From Apoderus coryli (taxonomy: Eukaryota > Arthropoda > Insecta > Coleoptera > Attelabidae), in assembly GCA_911728435.2 (NCBI GenBank), contig OU452203.1, positions 22,198,134 to 22,262,133 on the forward strand: 64,000 nucleotides of DNA, written 5' to 3'. The position numbers were made by a program, and so were the translations under genes. The notes beneath the pieces were generated by a model that was given only the letters and a program-made list of their open reading frames with translations, was not told the DNA's origin and did no database searches. Below, one piece after another: positions 14,660 through 57,782 of this stretch. The first letter of the stretch is position 1. The number at the start of each line of letters is the position of its first letter.

Positions 14660-15760
14660 GCCAATTGATTACGTCCGGTTAATAATGACAAATAATTTCA
14701 TTCAAATGGCTGCCTCGGCTGGCCATGCAGTAGCCTACACGGTCGGTCCAATTTTTAAGCACATTATCGATTGTGTGCAGCTGTATTTCACCAATGGCTT
14801 CACGAATATTGTCCTTTAAAGCATCAATTGTCTCTGGCTTGTCGGGGAAACACTTATCTTTGACGGCACCCCACAAATAATAGTCCAACGGTGTCAAATC
14901 GCAGCTCCGAGGTGACCAAACGACATCAGCTCTGCGGCTGATAATGCGATCTTCAAAAAACATCGAGTGTAGCTTCGGCTGTGTGGCACGTAGCGCGGTC
15001 CTGTTGAAACCAAATGTTGACAATATCCTTCTCTTCAATTAACGATCGCCATTGACTGTAACGGCCACTCCTTGCTCATTTTCGAAGAAAAATGGCCCAA
15101 TTATGCCTCCGGACCAAAATCCGCACCAAACAGTGACTCGTTTTGGGTGCATCGGCTTTTCAATGTATGCGTGCGGGTTTTCTGTGCCCCAAATGCGACA
15201 ATTTTGCTTGTTTACATACCCGGCAAGATCAAAATGAGCTTCATCTGAAAAGATGATTTTTTTGGCAAAATCGGCATCTTCTGTAAGTCGATCGCAGGCC
15301 CACTGAGCGAAGCGAAAACGCATTGGATGGTCAGTTGGGTTCAATTCCTGAACCAATTGAACTTTGTATGGCGTCATACCAAGGTCTTTATGCAAAATTC
15401 GTCTCAATGATGTCTCCGAAATGTTCAATTGTTGAGACCGATGGTGAATTGATGTTGATGGCGCTTCACGCACACTTTCTGTCACAGCAGCAATATTCTC
15501 GGGTGTACGCACTGTTTTTGGCTTTTCACGCTTTGGTTTATCGATGAGGATGCCAGTTTCTTTCACTTTTTTCACGAGATAACGAACATACGGAGCTGAC
15601 GGTGCTTTTCTTCTTCCAAAATCCGTACGCAATTTTCGCACACATTCTGCAACATTACCATGATTTTCAAAGTAATGTCGCAATATTTCCCAGCGTTGTT
15701 CAAGCGTATAACAACCATATTCGTTCAGAGGAAGGATAAAACTAATTATCTGTCTAATCA
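14660..15760 (-). mobile_element. mariner-family DNA transposon remnant
   Basis: A single decayed transposase gene occupies this minus-strand interval. Terminal inverted repeats could not be identified by eye on either side, so the limits are approximate. The transposase keeps the three catalytic acidic positions but is frameshifted by two small deletions. Confidence 0.75.
14679..15700 (-). pseudogene. mariner-like transposase, frameshifted
   Basis: The cut-and-paste transposase would bind terminal repeats through an N-terminal helix-turn-helix and cleave through a DDD/E RNase-H fold. Seen here are an N-terminal segment (LEQRWEIL, then HYFENHGNVAECVRKLR), an HTH-like stretch with RSQQLNISETSLRRIL, the first catalytic Asp in FSDEAHF (15,240-15,245), the second in QQDRATCHT (14,998-15,000) and the third in SCDLTPLDYYLWG (14,898-14,900). 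A deletion after NGDR (15,042) puts the second Asp in another frame, with a TAA at 15,039-15,041. A second small deletion near 14,965 restores the original frame, and the normal end (SHLNEIICHY) is intact. QQDRAT replaces the usual QQDGAT. Confidence 0.8.
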
Positions 15761-17710
15761 GACATGAGCTAACTGTTACCCTTCACGAAATAAGCACTAG
15801 TTGAAAAAAAAAACGTTAGAATGGCGGACCCGATATAAGTGGTCCAATGTCCAGTCGTTTTCGTTCGAAAATGTTGTTTGCATTTTTCTAAATTTTCGAT
15901 TTTTGTAGAGCACATTATAGATGTTGCAATACAAATGTTTAATTATTATAATTTCGTCCATTTGTCTTAATAAATGTTGCCAAAAGATTAGTAAATATTA
16001 AGGTATAATTTTTTCATGACGATGTTATTTTTTTCCAAAAAGGAACGAAAATAACCATGATTTATTACTATTATTATTTTTAAAATTTTGTGCAATTATT
16101 TTAGATCTATATACCTCAATAAAACAACAATACAAGAACAACAAAAATAATTCTTGACGAAGACTAGAGAGCAAATAAACATAATTTTGGAATTTTTGGT
16201 TTTATCACATTGTCAAAAAAAATATTATTTTCTTAGCAACAGTTAAATGTCTTAAATATGTAAATTTGCGGGTGTGTTGCGTCAATTTAAATGTAAAACC
16301 AAACATGTTTATAATAATTTCATCAAGTAAGATAACGTGATTCGGAAGAAGGTGGTTTTTTCAATATTTAATATATTTTTTACTTTCTCTCAATGATTAC
16401 AACATGTTAATCATAAAATAGACAAACAATTGATTTATTTTAGACGACATCTGTTTAATTTAATTTTAGTAATTTATTATGGTTCCTGTAGTTTCAAATA
16501 ATTTATATTTTACTTGCAAACTATTATTTATTATAATTATTAGAATGTTCCTTGAGAAATATTTATTATTTTTTGTTAAATAATTCATTTCGAGTTGCTT
16601 TAAAATAATTTAAAATTTATATTTATGTTCCAAACGGTTATATATAATTAATTTAAATATTTAATATACCATCGTTAACTTTTCTAAAATCCTGGTTTTC
16701 CTAGTGTACAAGTAATTATGTATACAAGGACATTTTTTTTAGAAATTTGAGAATAGAAATTTTTTAAAAGGGTTAGAATAAGTTAATTTTTCTTCCTCAA
16801 TCAGTTTTTGTACGAATTTTTGTAATATTTGAAATAAAATTGTATTAAAAATAATTAGAAATATGCTATTAATTTACAAAAACGTATTTTTGCGTAATAT
16901 TTATTCAATTAATTCCTGGTACTTTATAATAATTTAAATTTTGCATTTAACTTTACTTCTTATTTATTATAATTATTAAAACTACTTTTTAGAAATAATT
17001 TCGAAGCATGTCCACCATTTTTATTTAAAAAGAATGTAACTTTACTTCTTTTCCAATAAATTAGCGTATAATATATTTTAATCCTTTATGCATCTACCCG
17101 TATCAATCCATGTAGAAGCAAACTAATTTAGTTACTTTTGAAAATCCAATTATTATAAAAACGAGAACCAGTTCTTAAATTCTTTTACTTTATAATTATA
17201 AACAGAAAAAATACTTGTAATACCATACAAGTCAATTTAAACTAAATGCTTGAAACGCAAGAGTAGGTAGGTATTACTTTGCTTCTTTTTTTTTTTTGTT
17301 GTAGTATTTATAAATATTTTTTTTCTTTTTCTTTTAGTTAGTGATTAAACGAATCAAGATTAAAAGAAAACATTATATGTATACCTAAACATGAAGTATT
17401 TTTATAATAGATTAACAAATACATAATATCAAAGATTTTTTTTAAATTTATTCTACACGGAAATAAATCGTTTACAATTCGAAATTAAGCCAAAGAAACG
17501 CTAAAATAGTCTAGGAATTGTTATGAAGGGAATGAATATCACTTCTTGTATCAAAATCTTACAGATCTCGGACATTGTTGTCCTGTCATTTAATGACACG
17601 ATATTGTATTTAAGCGTATGATGGGTCGTCATCGCTAAATTCTGTGAAAGCGGCGATTTTTATGTATTTATTCGAGTTATTTTGTAAATACATTTCTACT
17701 AATTTTATCG
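15761..17710. other. AT-rich non-coding stretch
   Basis: No gene is visible. Two loosely similar blocks (about 16,480-16,620 and 16,900-17,050) share ATTTATTATAATTATTA followed by AGAAAT-rich sequence, perhaps an old duplication. Confidence 0.45.
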
Positions 17711-17850: not shown

Positions 17851-18558
17851 ATCTTCTTCTTCTTAAAATGCCGTACACTTCTAGTGCGTTGGCGACTATC
17901 TCATCATAACAAGGGTCCTTGCTTCCGCAGCGCGACAGAGCTCGCCCGTATTGCTAATGCCTGTTCAGTTCTTGATGTTTCTCAACCAGGACATCTGTTT
18001 ACGTCCTACTCCTCTCTTCCCTTCAATTTTTCCTTGGAGAATTATCTGTGGTATTTTGTACTTCTCTCCTCGTAGTATGTGGCCCAGGTATCCAATTTTC
18101 CGCTTCATGATTATGTTGAAAAGTTCTCTTTCGCATCCCGCCCTTCTAAGAACGTCTTCATTTCGAACTCGGTCTACCCACGATATACGTAGCCTCCTTC
18201 TTAGACACCACATTTCAAAAGCCTCAAGCTTGTTTATCGACCGGATCTTTAGAGTCCATGTTTCCATTCCATATAACAGGATGGACCAGACGTAACACTG
18301 CACCATTATGCATCTTAATTTGAGGGACAATGTCAGGTTGCAAAGAAAGGGTGTTAGGCTTGTGAAAGCTTGCCTCGCTTGTTGTATGCGACAGCAAATT
18401 TCCTGTTCGGGATTCCATTGTTCATTTATGTTGGTTCCAAGGTATTTAAAGTTTTGCACTCGTTCAATAGGTTGGTCTTCCAAGTTTAACACAGCATTTT
18501 GAGGAGGGTTTCTGCTTACTGTATGTATTGTATACGTGGTATTTTCTAAAATTTGCAC
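17851..18558 (-). mobile_element. RTE-like LINE 3' end, copy 1
   Basis: This 5'-truncated LINE fragment lies on the minus strand and ends in an AAG-type tail (TTCTTCTTC on the plus strand at 17,853-17,861). It is nearly identical to 44,178-44,838 over about 650 bp, implying relatively recent dispersal. The clade assignment (RTE/BovB-like) is from recall of the C-terminal protein motif. Confidence 0.8.
17965..18558 (-). pseudogene. LINE endonuclease-reverse transcriptase, C-terminal fragment
   Basis: About 197 codons remain open. They hold the post-palm domain: IERVQNFKYLGTNIN, CRIQQARQAFTSL, CYVWSILLYGMETWTLK, LEAFEMWCLRRRLRISW, RNEDVLRRAG, RKIGYLGHILRGEKY and EGKRGVGRKQMSWLRNIKN. This domain is characteristic of insect elements annotated as endonuclease-reverse transcriptase. 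The palm with its catalytic aspartates is absent, so the fragment cannot act. Compared with the copy at 44.3 kb it has a few substitutions, such as RRRLRISW versus RRMLRISW. Confidence 0.8.
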
Positions 18559-19018
18559 GTAAACATTGATAACAATTTCTTTCGTGTACTAAATATTTCA
18601 GAGATCTGTTTTTTTTTCAAACAAATTATTAGTAAATTCTTCATTAAATTTTAGATGTATTTTGCAATAACATTTCCCTGTATATTTCAAAGCGGTTTAA
18701 AAGAATATTAATACTATACAATGTTGCTTCACGTTCTATACCTACATTTGAATAAATTACGGTAAATCCTATTTAAAAGAAGGTGTAAACAATTATTTAA
18801 GCTTTTTAGTTTGAATTAAAAAAAAGATTACCAGTTGTAAAGTACACTATGGTAAAGTATACTATGGAATTATAACCGTATATCTCAGAAATTATGAGAG
18901 AGTTCGTGTTAGATTTTTTACTTGGTTTGTGTATTTTTATAAATAAAAAACTACTTACTTAGATATTTTGTAAAAAAATTTCATGAATTTATCAAGCATT
19001 TAGTTATTATCACTTTCC
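18559..19018. other. AT-rich spacer
   Basis: Nothing recognisable is seen between the RTE-like fragment and LINE relic 4. Confidence 0.45.
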
Positions 19019-44177: not shown

Positions 44178-44838
44178 ATCTTCTTCTTCTTAAAATGCTG
44201 TACACTTCTAGTGCGTTGGCGACTATCTTATCATAATAAGGGTCCTTGCTTCCGCAGCGCGACAGAGCTCGCCCGTATTGCTAATGCCTGTTCAGTTCTT
44301 GATGTTTCCCAACCAGGACATCTGTTTACGTCCTACTCCTCTCTTCCCTTCAATTTTTCCTTGGAGAATTATCTGTGGTATTTTGTACTTCTCTCCTCGT
44401 AGTATGTGGCCCAGGTATCCAATTTTCCGCTTCTTGATTATGTTGAAAAGTTCTCTTTCGCATCCCGCCCTTCTAAGAACGTCTTCATTTCGAACTCGGT
44501 CTACCCACGATATACGTAGCATCCTTCTTAGACACCACATTTCAAAAGCCTCAAGCTTGTTTATCGACCGGATCTTCAGAGTCCATGTTTCCATTCCATA
44601 TAACAGGATGGACCAGACGTAACACTGCACCATTCTGCATCTTAATTTGAGGGACAATGTCAGGTTGCAAAGAAAGGGTCTTAGGCTTGTGAAAGCTTGC
44701 CTCGCTTGTTGTATGCGACAGCAAATTTCCTGTTCGGGATTCCATTGTTCATTTATGTTGGTTCCAAGGTATTTAAAGTTTTGCACTCGTTCAATAGGTT
44801 GGTCTTCCAAGTTTAACACAGCATTTTGAGGAGCGTTT
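44178..44838 (-). mobile_element. RTE-like LINE 3' end, copy 2
   Basis: It is almost identical to 17,851-18,506 over its whole length and has the same AAG-type tail. It is truncated earlier at its 5' end (44,838), exactly where the transposase remnant at 44,839 begins. Confidence 0.85.
44292..44819 (-). pseudogene. LINE endonuclease-reverse transcriptase, C-terminal fragment
   Basis: The 175 open codons carry the same domain as the 18-kb copy, with conserved motifs YLGTNINEQWNPEQEI, CYVWSILLYGMETW, RRMLRISWVDRVRNEDVL and EGKRGVGRKQMSWLGN. It lacks the catalytic palm. The few differences from copy 1 (M for R, K for M in IIKKRK, G for R in WLGN) indicate a recent common source. Confidence 0.8.
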
Positions 44839-45560
44839 AAAATAAGAAAATTAATAACAACTGTTCAAACTGCCCTCCATTGGCAGTCATGCACATTTTA
44901 CATCTTTCAACTAATGAATTTGTAGCTCTAATAAGGATATTATGATTGTTTTTTATTTTCCTAGCAGCTTCATGAACTATCTCCAGTAGTTGGTTTTCAT
45001 TGGTACACTGTAAACCAATTGTTTCATGTACCCCCATAAAAAGAAGTCGAGCAGATTCAGATCCAGTGATCTTGGAGGCCACTCATTGAAACCTCCCAAA
45101 CCAATCAAATTGTTTCCAAACAGTTGATTTAAAACTTTAGTTACTTGTCTACCACGGTGCGCAGGAGCTCCGTCATATTGATACCACATGTTTTGAACAA
45201 TATTCAGAGGTACATCCTCAATAAATTCGGGCAGGCGGTTGTGTAGGAAAAGAGTGTATTGATTTGAGTTTAAATGCCCATTAATTACGAACAACGGCAA
45301 TAATTTATTGTTAAACATGTCACCCCAAACATTGATACTAAAACGTTCTTGAAAATTTCGCGGCCTAATAGCACGAGGGTTGTTTAAAGACTATAGGTAC
45401 ATATGTTCATTATGGTTTGTATTTATGCCATCTCTCGTAAAAGTTGCTTCATCTGACCAGAGCACTTTCTCTCAAAATCTTTCATCTTCTTGATGCTTAC
45501 CAAGAACCCAATTACAAAATAGTAGGCGCCTTTCACGGTCTCCAGGATGTAGGGCCTGGA
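44839..45560 (-). pseudogene. mariner-like transposase, catalytic half
   Basis: Reading from 45,560 downwards: RRLLFCNWVLGKHQEDERF, then the first catalytic Asp-Glu in WSDEATFTRDG (45,448-45,453), RFSINVWGD, FVINGHLNSNQYTLFLHNRL, the second Asp in YQYDGAPAHRGRQV (45,172-45,174) and the third in PPRSLDLNLLDFFLWGYMK (45,061-45,063). There are 36 residues between the second and third Asp. A frameshift near 45,000 moves the reading to NENQLLEIVHEAARKIKNNH and CMTANGGQFEQLL, a normal-looking end. SLDLN replaces the usual SPDLN. Confidence 0.8.
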
Positions 45561-47225: not shown

Positions 47226-47237
47226 GTCCTATATTAT
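47226..47237 (+). repeat. left target-site duplication of the ribozyme element
   Basis: GTCCTATATTAT here is repeated at 48,231-48,242, at the two outer borders of the ribozyme-bearing insertion. The last one or two bases are ambiguous between duplication and element. Confidence 0.75.
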
Positions 47238-47353
47238 TAAGAGGATTTCATGTCCGTAAATATAATAAATGAAAATAATTTCGTGGCAAAGCGGACTAAA
47301 ATGTTGGCTTTACCTACACAAGGAATTTTGTTTAATTTAGCAGGGCCCCAGTC
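47237..47353 (-). repeat. inverted 5' fragment (117 bp)
   Basis: It is the perfect reverse complement of 47,625-47,741 as far as read. Because that segment spans the monomer junction at 47,711/47,712, the inverted piece must derive from a template containing at least two joined monomers or a circle. It joins the first monomer with a two-base overlap (TC). Confidence 0.9.
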
Positions 47354-47524
47354 ATACTATTTTTATTTATTTCTATTTATACGACTGGTTTTACCTGTAC
47401 ATTGAGTTTGTTCGGCCTCTGCATGGTATAGGATATGCATTACTATGTACATGTAGATGATATGTGTTTACATGTGTCTACTGTTGTGTATCCTATTGTG
47501 CTTAAATGCAGGCCGATATTTGTG

Positions 47525-47598
47525 ATGGGCAGCGACTATGGTGCTCTGACGAGCTCATAACAAGAGCGAAACGAATTCGTCAGTACCTGTCGACCCAT
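47525..47598 (+). ncRNA. type I hammerhead ribozyme, copy 1
   Basis: Core CTGACGA at 47,546-47,552 (C3 U4 G5 A6 N7 G8 A9), stem II GCTC 47,553-47,556 with GAGC 47,564-47,567 and loop ATAACAA, then GAA 47,568-47,570. Stem III is A-C-G 47,571-47,573 with C-G-T 47,578-47,580 and loop AATT. C17 is base 47,581, so cleavage is predicted after the GTC triplet at 47,581. Stem I is GGTGCT 47,540-47,545 with AGTACC 47,582-47,587, extended by CGAC/GTCG and ATGGG/CCCAT across small internal loops. All invariant bases are present. The open stem I makes it type I. The 3-bp stem III resembles those of retroelement hammerheads. Confidence 0.9.
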
Positions 47599-47711
47599 GC
47601 CTCGGTCTGGTTTCTATCGAATTAGACTGGGGCCCTGCTAAATTAAACAAAATTCCTTGTGTAGGTAAAGCCAACATTTTAGTCCGCTTTGCCACGAAAT
47701 TATTTTCATTT

Positions 47712-48230
47712 ATTATATTTACGGACATGAAATCCTCTTAATTTTTCATTATTTGGCATTAAACATCGACGGCAGAACGCTTGGAGACCACCGTCCGAGC
47801 ATTGCTGAAACCCAAATATTTGGGAGATGCTGGCAGAAGGATAAAATAGTCTCCTGCTAGCGTTTTGTGTTCATACTATTTTTATTTATTTCTATTTATA
47901 CGACTGGTTTTACCTGTACATTGAGTTTGTTCGGCCTCTGCATGGTTTAGGATATGCATTACTATGTACATGTAGATGATATGTGTTTACATGTGTCTAC
48001 TGTTGTCTATCCTATTGTGCTTAAATGCAGGCCGATATTTGTGATGGGCAGCGACTATGGTGCTCTGACGAGCTCATAACAAGAGCGAAACGAATTCGTC
48101 AGTACCTGTCGACCCATGCCTCGGTCTGGTTTCTATCGAATTAGACTGGGGCCCTGCTAAATTAAACAAAATTCCTTGTGTAGGTAAAGCCAACATTTTA
48201 GTCCGCTTTGCCACGAAATTATTTTCATTT
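47712..48230 (+). repeat. complete 519-bp monomer
   Basis: It begins ATTATATTTACGGACATG and ends TTATTTTCATTT, where the target duplication starts. Its first ~159 bp are not represented in the truncated copy, apart from 30 bp in the inverted fragment. A short open stretch (ERLETTVRALLKPKYLGDAG) near 47,775-47,835 is probably fortuitous. Confidence 0.8.
48044..48117 (+). ncRNA. type I hammerhead ribozyme, copy 2
   Basis: It is identical in sequence to the first copy over the ribozyme, with the core CTGACGA at 48,065-48,071 and predicted cleavage after 48,100. The cleavage sites are 519 nt apart, so a transcript across both would release a 519-nt RNA (47,582-48,100) with ends suited to circularisation. 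Confidence 0.9.
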
Positions 48231-48242
48231 GTCCTATATTAT
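48231..48242 (+). repeat. right target-site duplication of the ribozyme element
   Basis: GTCCTATATTAT, identical to 47,226-47,237. Confidence 0.75.
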
Positions 48243-56262: not shown

Positions 56263-57715
56263 AATGTCCAGAACCAGAAGTACCTAATGCTCTAAATAAG
56301 AAACTTTGTATAGGTACGTATTTAAAATTTGTATTTGATTTTATCTTTCTTGGCAACCCTGTTCATTTTTATTACAACGATAAATGAAACCACGGCTTAC
56401 TAGGTATGTAGGTACATAAGTTAAGAAGTGTTTTTATTATTTTAATTAATTAAAATTTTCCAATCCTTAAACGAATTTTTGAGAAATTATTTTAAAATAT
56501 ATGACAGTAATGTATAAATGCCGAGAGAGATTATAACATTTTTTAACATTTAAGTACGCGAGTAAAATATAATGTGTTCCATTAAAAAAAAAAAAAAGAA
56601 TAGGTACTACCTTGAATAAATAATAATAAATGTAGGTACTAATGAATTTTGGTCACCCTGTATATTAATCTAGCACCGTATATGGAAAACAATTTTTCGT
56701 ATCAATACAATGAGAGTTAGTAGACTTTCAAGTCTTTTGTAATATGATTCATGATTATAATTATCTACTTTTAGCACATACCATACTTTTAGAAACATCC
56801 TGTATATAGGTATATCATTTTCATAGAGCTTAGACCTATTTTGTATGGAATACCAACGTAAAAATAATTTTATGCTGGTAATATTGCGTTCAACGGATGT
56901 ACTGGCGCATTCACCAAAATTGAAAATTTGAGTTTTAAAACATTTTATTACTATTTAAAGAATTAGAACTGCGACTAAAGAGAAACTGTTTTTTGTCCGT
57001 CATTTATTTTACTTAAGTATTTCGTTGTTTATTTATATCCATCATTTATATTTTGTAAAATAAAATATCTTAATCAGAGAGAAGGCGTTATTATAGAAAT
57101 GAAAAGTGTGTTTTGTTAGGTGTAGGTATTTAAACAAATAAATAATGTATTTAAAATATTTTTATTAATTAAATATACCTACTTAAGTATGAAATAAAAA
57201 TAATAGATTAATCAAATGTAATATTTTATTATTATAGTATCTAAAATTAGGTCAAACATAAATTACAATTATTATGTTATATAAACAATTAATTTGTATA
57301 CAAATTGTTTTAAAAACTTACATATAAACACAAGCAAATTTAATTAATACAATATACAAATTATGATAATTTTACATTTTTATTTTATATTTTTGTAAAT
57401 GTGTATAAAAATATAAATTACAACTTATTAAGTGTATTAATAACAAATAAATAATATTAAATATCTATTACATATTAATTTATTGTATACAATATTAAAT
57501 AGTTAGCTATTTATATATCAATACTTTATAAATAACAAACGAAAGTATGTATCTATATCTACTTAATTAAAAAATATATACATATAATTATTACATCTTT
57601 ACGACAGCCGGACGTTACCAGGTCCACAAACCGCAGATCAGTATATCAACAGAGTTGTATATGTAACCTCCTGTTACGTATACTGAAGGTATACCGGAAA
57701 TTCTAACACTCAGGA
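56263..57715. other. AT-rich non-coding stretch
   Basis: CACCCTGTATATT at 56,656 is a terminus-like word. No gene is seen. Confidence 0.45.
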
Positions 57716-57720
57716 TACAT

Positions 57721-57782
57721 TCAGTATACGTAGAGGAAGTTGGCATACGTTTCGACCAAATAATCAACACCAACATCGGTAC
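57721..57782 (-). CDS. candidate terminal exon of a minus-strand gene
   Basis: An ATATAG acceptor ends at 57,783. With one base carried from the exon at 58,086 the frame reads C-TDVGVDYLVETYANFLYVY and stops at TGA (57,721-57,723). The acceptor lacks a strong pyrimidine tract. Support comes only from phase compatibility with the upstream candidate exon. Confidence 0.15.

Follow-up and report, generated by a model that had tools for sequence, protein, structure and literature searches.

Paired S and L ends in head-to-head insertions of a hammerhead retrozyme from the beetle Apoderus coryli suggest priming of both arms on one, probably circular, RNA

The window, meaning the whole 64,000-nucleotide stretch of Apoderus coryli DNA analyzed here, held a retrozyme insertion bounded by a 12-bp target duplication, GTCCTATATTAT, at 47226-47237 on the left and 48231-48242 on the right, in agreement with the 10-12 bp duplication proposed by the first-pass annotation; the final 2 nt of the left copy also match the element. 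The left arm (47236-47353, minus strand, 118 nt) was a 100% inverted copy of 47625-47742 and ran from unit position 161 to 44, unit positions being numbered from the base after the predicted ribozyme cut. The right arm (47352-48230, plus strand, 879 nt) comprised 1.69 direct copies of a 519-nt unit and ran from unit position 290 to 130. The two arms met head to head at 47352-47353 with a 2-nt overlap (TC), and their outer ends belonged to two classes described below, L on the left and S on the right. The initial description of a tandem element held for the direct units but had overlooked the inverted partial copy on the left. Direct repeats were spaced by 519 nt and carried two differences in 360 nt (47428 and 47488), the same two monomer differences counted originally. 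One full unit from predicted cut to predicted cut occupied 47582-48100 on the plus strand and would be the RNA monomer or circle; its GC content was 39.9% and its longest frame around the circle 63 aa, making it non-coding. Within it, the interval between the S and L start sites (47713-47742, plus strand, unit positions about 132-161) is the retrozyme counterpart of the 'tail' of Penelope-like elements (PLEs), a concept taken from the available parts of PMC11167929 and PMC3846280.

Elsewhere in the window were a near-identical pair of reverse-transcriptase-like fragments (17885-18588 and 44212-44864) and minus-strand remains (14682-15782 and 44980-45390) that resemble mariner/Tc-type transposases by the look of their reading frames. 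mir-iab-4 is a microRNA of arthropod Hox clusters. A mir-iab-4 precursor (79.8 bits) lay at 57668-57738 on the plus strand, about 9.4 kb from the insertion, and since the window carries it the insertion probably sits within the Hox cluster.

Both predicted cuts fell within hammerhead ribozymes on the plus strand, at 47540-47587 (stem I, CUGACGA, stem II, GAAA, stem III, GUC; predicted cut after 47581) and at 48059-48106 (same sequence; predicted cut after 48100). Both cores read CTGACGA / GCTC-ATAACAA-GAGC / GAA / ACG-AATT-CGT / C, with GGTGCT/AGTACC as stem I in each copy. Re-reading them returned the cut positions originally predicted, and core letters and descriptor scan alike bore out a pair of complete type I hammerheads separated by 519 nt. 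The scan of both window strands found these two sites only, and 60 Markov-resampled windows gave 0 strict and 0.03 relaxed matches per window. The extended fold reached -24.3 kcal/mol (z -3.05), equaled by 1 of 200 shuffles. None of the Rfam hammerhead models reached its gathering score at these sites, the best being HH9 with 20.6 against 52 bits, so that the covariance-model check suggested in the first-pass annotation gave a poor score for Rfam's models. The Rfam scan was dropped as proof of a ribozyme, HH9 being sub-threshold only, and the case for the ribozyme therefore rests on core, fold and copy number. The 36-nt ribozyme core occurred at 2,567 places with up to 3 mismatches (428 Mb, 129 contigs) and its reversed control at 0, so the monomer is not unique in the genome; uniqueness would have counted against the original reading. 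We saw no purifying selection on the ribozyme among aligned copies, with variable columns at 3 of 37 ribozyme positions and 38 of 423 overall; this result and the low Rfam score speak against the retrozyme reading.

These features would place the element among animal non-LTR retrozymes, which in the passages covered of PMC7229834 and PMC7761336 are non-coding, have units of 150-450 bp and a GC content under 45%. As predicted from its letters the element has the canonical type I hammerhead core of that class, and its GC content and lack of coding capacity are those of a retrozyme. It shares with the published elements, as far as those parts go, short tandem repeats without an LTR and a proposed circRNA intermediate reverse-transcribed as multimers; it differs in unit length (519-525 nt here, 150-450 bp published) and in its inverted arms and S/L ends, which do not appear in those portions of PMC7229834 and PMC7761336. 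Neither 'head-to-head' nor 'target site' occurs in the passages covered of PMC7229834. Plant LTR retrozymes, as presented in part of PMC7761336, likewise have a hammerhead flanking a non-coding unit and a circRNA intermediate, but their ribozyme is of type III, they carry LTRs with PBS and PPT, and their duplications are 4 bp, whereas the element in the window has a type I ribozyme and a 12-bp duplication. A PLE encodes a reverse transcriptase (RT) and a GIY-YIG domain; the retrozyme, being non-coding, encodes neither.

A genome search with the 519-nt unit returned 247 matches, the best 150 of which resolved into 39 loci and so represent the closest copies rather than a random sample. All 39 were read letter by letter; one of them, L039, consists of a single plus arm within a PLE and was excluded, leaving 38 insertions. 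Every one of the 38 two-armed insertions aligned from the best 150 of 247 matches ran minus arm then plus arm. Target duplications, counted with any overlap with the element, measured 9-15 bp in 36 of the 38, and 5 and 7 bp in L046 and L055. Flank comparison among the 38 gave 0 matches, and because their flanks lacked similarity we took the insertions as independent. The element is dispersed, flanked by duplications and young, as was first said of the insertion in the window. It is hardly credible that we are looking at an ordinary tandem satellite or an assembly artefact with chance repeats: tandem ribozyme repeats were initially described as satellite DNA (PMC7229834), but unrelated flanks, target duplications and 2,567 dispersed ribozyme places argue against it here.

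Contig C1 gave the same arm order. Among 54 ribozyme clusters at 0-30 Mb, 14 of 14 with two orientations were minus-then-plus, some of these loci being shared with the 38; unit spacings in this list were 525 (20), 526 (9), 515 (2) and 556 (1), against 519 in the window. A separate C1 sample (0-35.6 Mb, exact 20-mers, first 100 of 1,047 and of 535 places) yielded 39 clusters among the places listed, comprising 18 of single orientation, left out of scoring, and 21 of two orientations, 5 of them among the 38. Minus preceded plus in 20 of these 21 (places listed); the exception, C1:17374206 (plus-minus-plus), is of the S/L kind and lies within an AT repeat, next to another retrozyme piece. The surrounding locus (L116, C1:17373900-17375100) comprised two retrozyme pieces separated by an AT-repeat of about 56 nt, apparently two side-by-side insertions.

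Outer ends of the 38 insertions fell either at unit positions 126-140 (S) or at 160-173 (L), about 30 nt apart, with none between. Each insertion had exactly one S and one L end (38/38), L lying on the left in 20 and on the right in 18. The probability of this by chance is about 4e-11 with the 76 end labels fixed, and 20,000 label shuffles produced at most 32 S/L pairs out of 38. C1 clusters beyond the 38 (n=16, places listed) included 13 S/L pairs, 0 S/S and 0 L/L; 6 of the 13 were letter-read at both ends, and in 7 the long end was identified by exact pattern only. The least clear S end was that of C1:3301396, where 15 of the 28 tail columns agree, whether fortuitously or through decay, against 4-11 in the other S ends read there; an 8-bp duplication follows it. 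Two insertions with target duplications (L114/L115 at C1:29792531; L121/L127/L128 at C1:12665838) paired L with a start at 473-475 in place of S, which may be a minor third site beside the ribozyme, and one C1 insertion combined L with a break at 284 and had no recognizable duplication. These 473-475 starts and the 284 break count against the S/L reading. Arm length did not differ by start site (medians 938 and 720, p 0.27), and the start sites, examined for a conserved stem, folded no better than shuffles. Judged by sequence, the retrozyme has the ends of a PLE, namely a tail, an inverted arm and a short duplication.

The main PLE family of the same genome followed the same rule. Several of 150 genomic GIY-YIG matches formed minus/plus pairs. 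One PLE (L060) encodes an RT (PF00078) and a GIY-YIG domain (PF01541), and its family (L060/L061) has open frames of 734 and 752 aa, one per arm of one palindrome; the protein was at most 64% identical to the best 120 of 685 matches. Ends in this family read GA(T/C)TGTCAGTTT, with or without a 33-nt tail. In a first set of 17 (3 initial copies, 7 pairs and 7 GIY-YIG pairs), 16 had exactly one tail, and L078/79 had one end not found. Comparing the first 100 of 736 core places with the first 100 of 397 tail places gave 35 minus/plus pairs among the places listed; 34 had one exact tail and the 35th, on reading its letters, a tail with one mismatch. Eight of the 35 were fully read and 2 were already in the first set. 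Overall the family had one tail in 49/49, of which 24/24 were letter-read at both ends and 25/25 scored by pattern, where a mutated tail would score short, as L094 did before letter reading; at least one GIY-YIG minus/plus pair (C14:19466716/19468210) was left out. A second family (L062) had one tail in 2 of 3, the third copy (L092/93) having one end not found. The single copy of a third family (L063, C5:24788800-24794400) was head-to-head with alike ends and no tail or duplication seen, and counts against a two-site rule.

Solo PLE inserts departed from the evenly spread inner ends of the retrozyme described below, 18 of 35 having a centre of 131-144 nt. Of 8 inserts read, 4 (L095, L097, L098, L100) had both arms stopping at one place or within a base of it, about 33 nt downstream of a TATA box, as though they had run off a capped linear RNA whose ribozyme was uncut. 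These four and other tiny PLE inserts had as many as 5 additional bases where the arms join; another solo insert (L096) had a centre of only 6 nt.

The two kinds of element met in L059, where 863 nt of retrozyme sit in the middle of a PLE palindrome and the plus PLE arm joins them at unit position 127, within the S zone; this single case would put PLE and retrozyme RNAs in one event, with the enzyme on a retrozyme start site. Derivation of the monomer from the L060 PLE by deletion was considered and ruled out, as there was no similarity. Start regions of the L060 PLE and the retrozyme did not align convincingly, 19 of 500 shuffles aligning better. The retrozyme and this PLE thus have no clear sequence in common, which counts against attributing the insertions to a PLE enzyme. 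The non-coding unit, the PLE-like insertion geometry and the one chimera lend support to the original proposal of a non-autonomous element using a Penelope-type RT in trans.

Arms were longer than one unit in 56 of 76 cases and crossed the ribozyme cut site in 69 of 76, which speaks against a linear cut monomer because such a template would stop there. Inner ends were uniform around the unit (KS p 0.30), with 2 of 76 within 5 nt of the cut site against 1.6 expected. At the centre, the 38 joints comprised 21 with an overlap of 1-6 nt, 8 blunt and 9 with 1-15 nt of filler. In the part of PMC3846280 available, head-to-head PLE copies are put down to self-priming on an antisense template. A single cDNA that folded back and copied itself would account for the head-to-head order and palindromic centres, and two large PLE copies (L060, L062) are near-perfect palindromes. 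It should also leave mirrored inner ends, yet inner-end pairs were within 10 nt of mirror symmetry in 0 of 38 insertions (1.5 by chance) and within 30 nt in 6 (4.4 by chance), and alike outer ends, which differed in 38 of 38 retrozymes, whose arm lengths moreover differ by up to several units. Fold-back is thus a very unlikely origin of the inverted arm, and since the retrozyme arms lack mirrored centres they contradict the self-priming account in that portion of PMC3846280.

Sequence variants connect the two arms of an insertion. Across 231 copies, with the priming zone and one indel zone excluded, we counted 0.76 differences/kb among copies in the same arm, 0.80 when the arms of an insertion were compared with each other and 5.86 from one insertion to another. 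Own-arm distance was 1.15/kb over 37 insertions, and 0 of 2,000 shuffled pairings were as low (minimum 3.61). Own-arm differences were present in 9 of the 37, the largest being L034 with 5 sites clustered in its innermost copy. Tandem arms would also result if the template were not a circle but a long multimer transcribed from a genomic array and left uncut, and the Anolis PLE inserts in vitro without need for ribozyme cleavage (PMC11167929, in the section available). We consider such a template unlikely: arms should then end at transcript 5' ends, and their inner ends are uniform instead; array heterogeneity would also be expected and the copies of each insertion are near-identical, a weaker point since arrays are homogeneous. 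Double-ended priming on two RNAs or circles in an asymmetric enzyme dimer, one half taking S and the other L, is a somewhat stronger contender, though still a doubtful one. It explains the S/L rule and the head-to-head order just as well, it accounts simply for those solo PLE inserts whose arms reach the same RNA 5' end, and two RNAs transcribed from a single source locus could likewise give the shared haplotypes. It requires, however, that both RNAs be of the same haplotype in nearly every insertion, and an asymmetry that one RNA supplies free. The simplest cause of the absent S/S and L/L pairs is that both starts lie on one RNA, on which each site is present once.

Retrozymes, PLE tails and inverted arms are already known. 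PLEs (PMC11167929 on Anolis, PMC3846280 on Adineta vaga and the curation guide PMC8969392, each in part) share with the retrozyme inverted arms, a tail of about 30-40 nt, a hammerhead and short duplications, the latter 8-10 bp in Adineta vaga (PMC3846280). According to the available text of PMC11167929, the Anolis PLE protein cleaves and extends both strands and has two adjacent internal starts, a likeness of the Anolis element PAc to ours; it is modelled as a dimer, and its authors observed no strand difference in start site, which fits the near-equal placement of L on left and right here (20 and 18). The same source leaves later steps for validation. In the accounts covered, the tail is optional at one inverted pLTR (PMC3846280) and inversion is put down to self-priming, whereas here there is one tail per insertion and apparently two-ended priming. 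The literature searched, partial in its coverage, contained no statement that every insertion has one S and one L end, and no argument from shared haplotypes for a circular template.

L1 twin priming, in which the RNA is primed by the second DNA 3' end as well, produces a 5' inversion, occasionally and at arbitrary sites. The retrozyme resembles it in the second 3' end that would prime on the same RNA, but here this is the rule, at two fixed sites and on a template that would be circular.

Arm order, outer ends, target duplications, shared variants and uniform inner ends are all read directly from the genome, and we postulate a mechanism that would produce them. The hammerheads would cut a multimeric transcript, and the product, about 520 nt long, would close into a circle. 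A PLE RT/GIY-YIG enzyme acting in trans would cut both target strands about 12 bp apart, presumably leaving 3' overhangs, and each free DNA 3' end would prime reverse transcription on the circle, as the geometry suggests, one starting at S (about 126-140) and the other at L (about 160-173). A single RNA molecule would serve each insertion, with S and L occupied once each, since no S/S or L/L pair was scored and private variants are common to both arms; one possibility is that each half of an enzyme dimer takes one of the sites. From either start, copying would travel round the circle 0.16 to 7 times, and the cDNA ends would then meet by end joining to give a minus-then-plus array between target duplications. 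On this evidence the animal retrozyme is probably moved by a PLE enzyme, the two DNA ends left by the cut each priming at a site of its own on a shared circular RNA. For the wider proposal the balance is about even: insertion of EN-containing PLEs in general may be an obligate two-site, two-strand event in which a dimer seats both ends on a single RNA, with retrozymes using a circular template and so forming head-to-head rolling-circle arrays.

A two-site rule would explain the insertion of a poorly understood class of retroelements. It would make the 'optional tail' and head-to-head copies marks of one reaction, and it predicts how paired junctions must look. For animal retrozymes, our results provide sequence evidence for single-haplotype, probably circular templates, and would tie these elements to the PLE enzyme.
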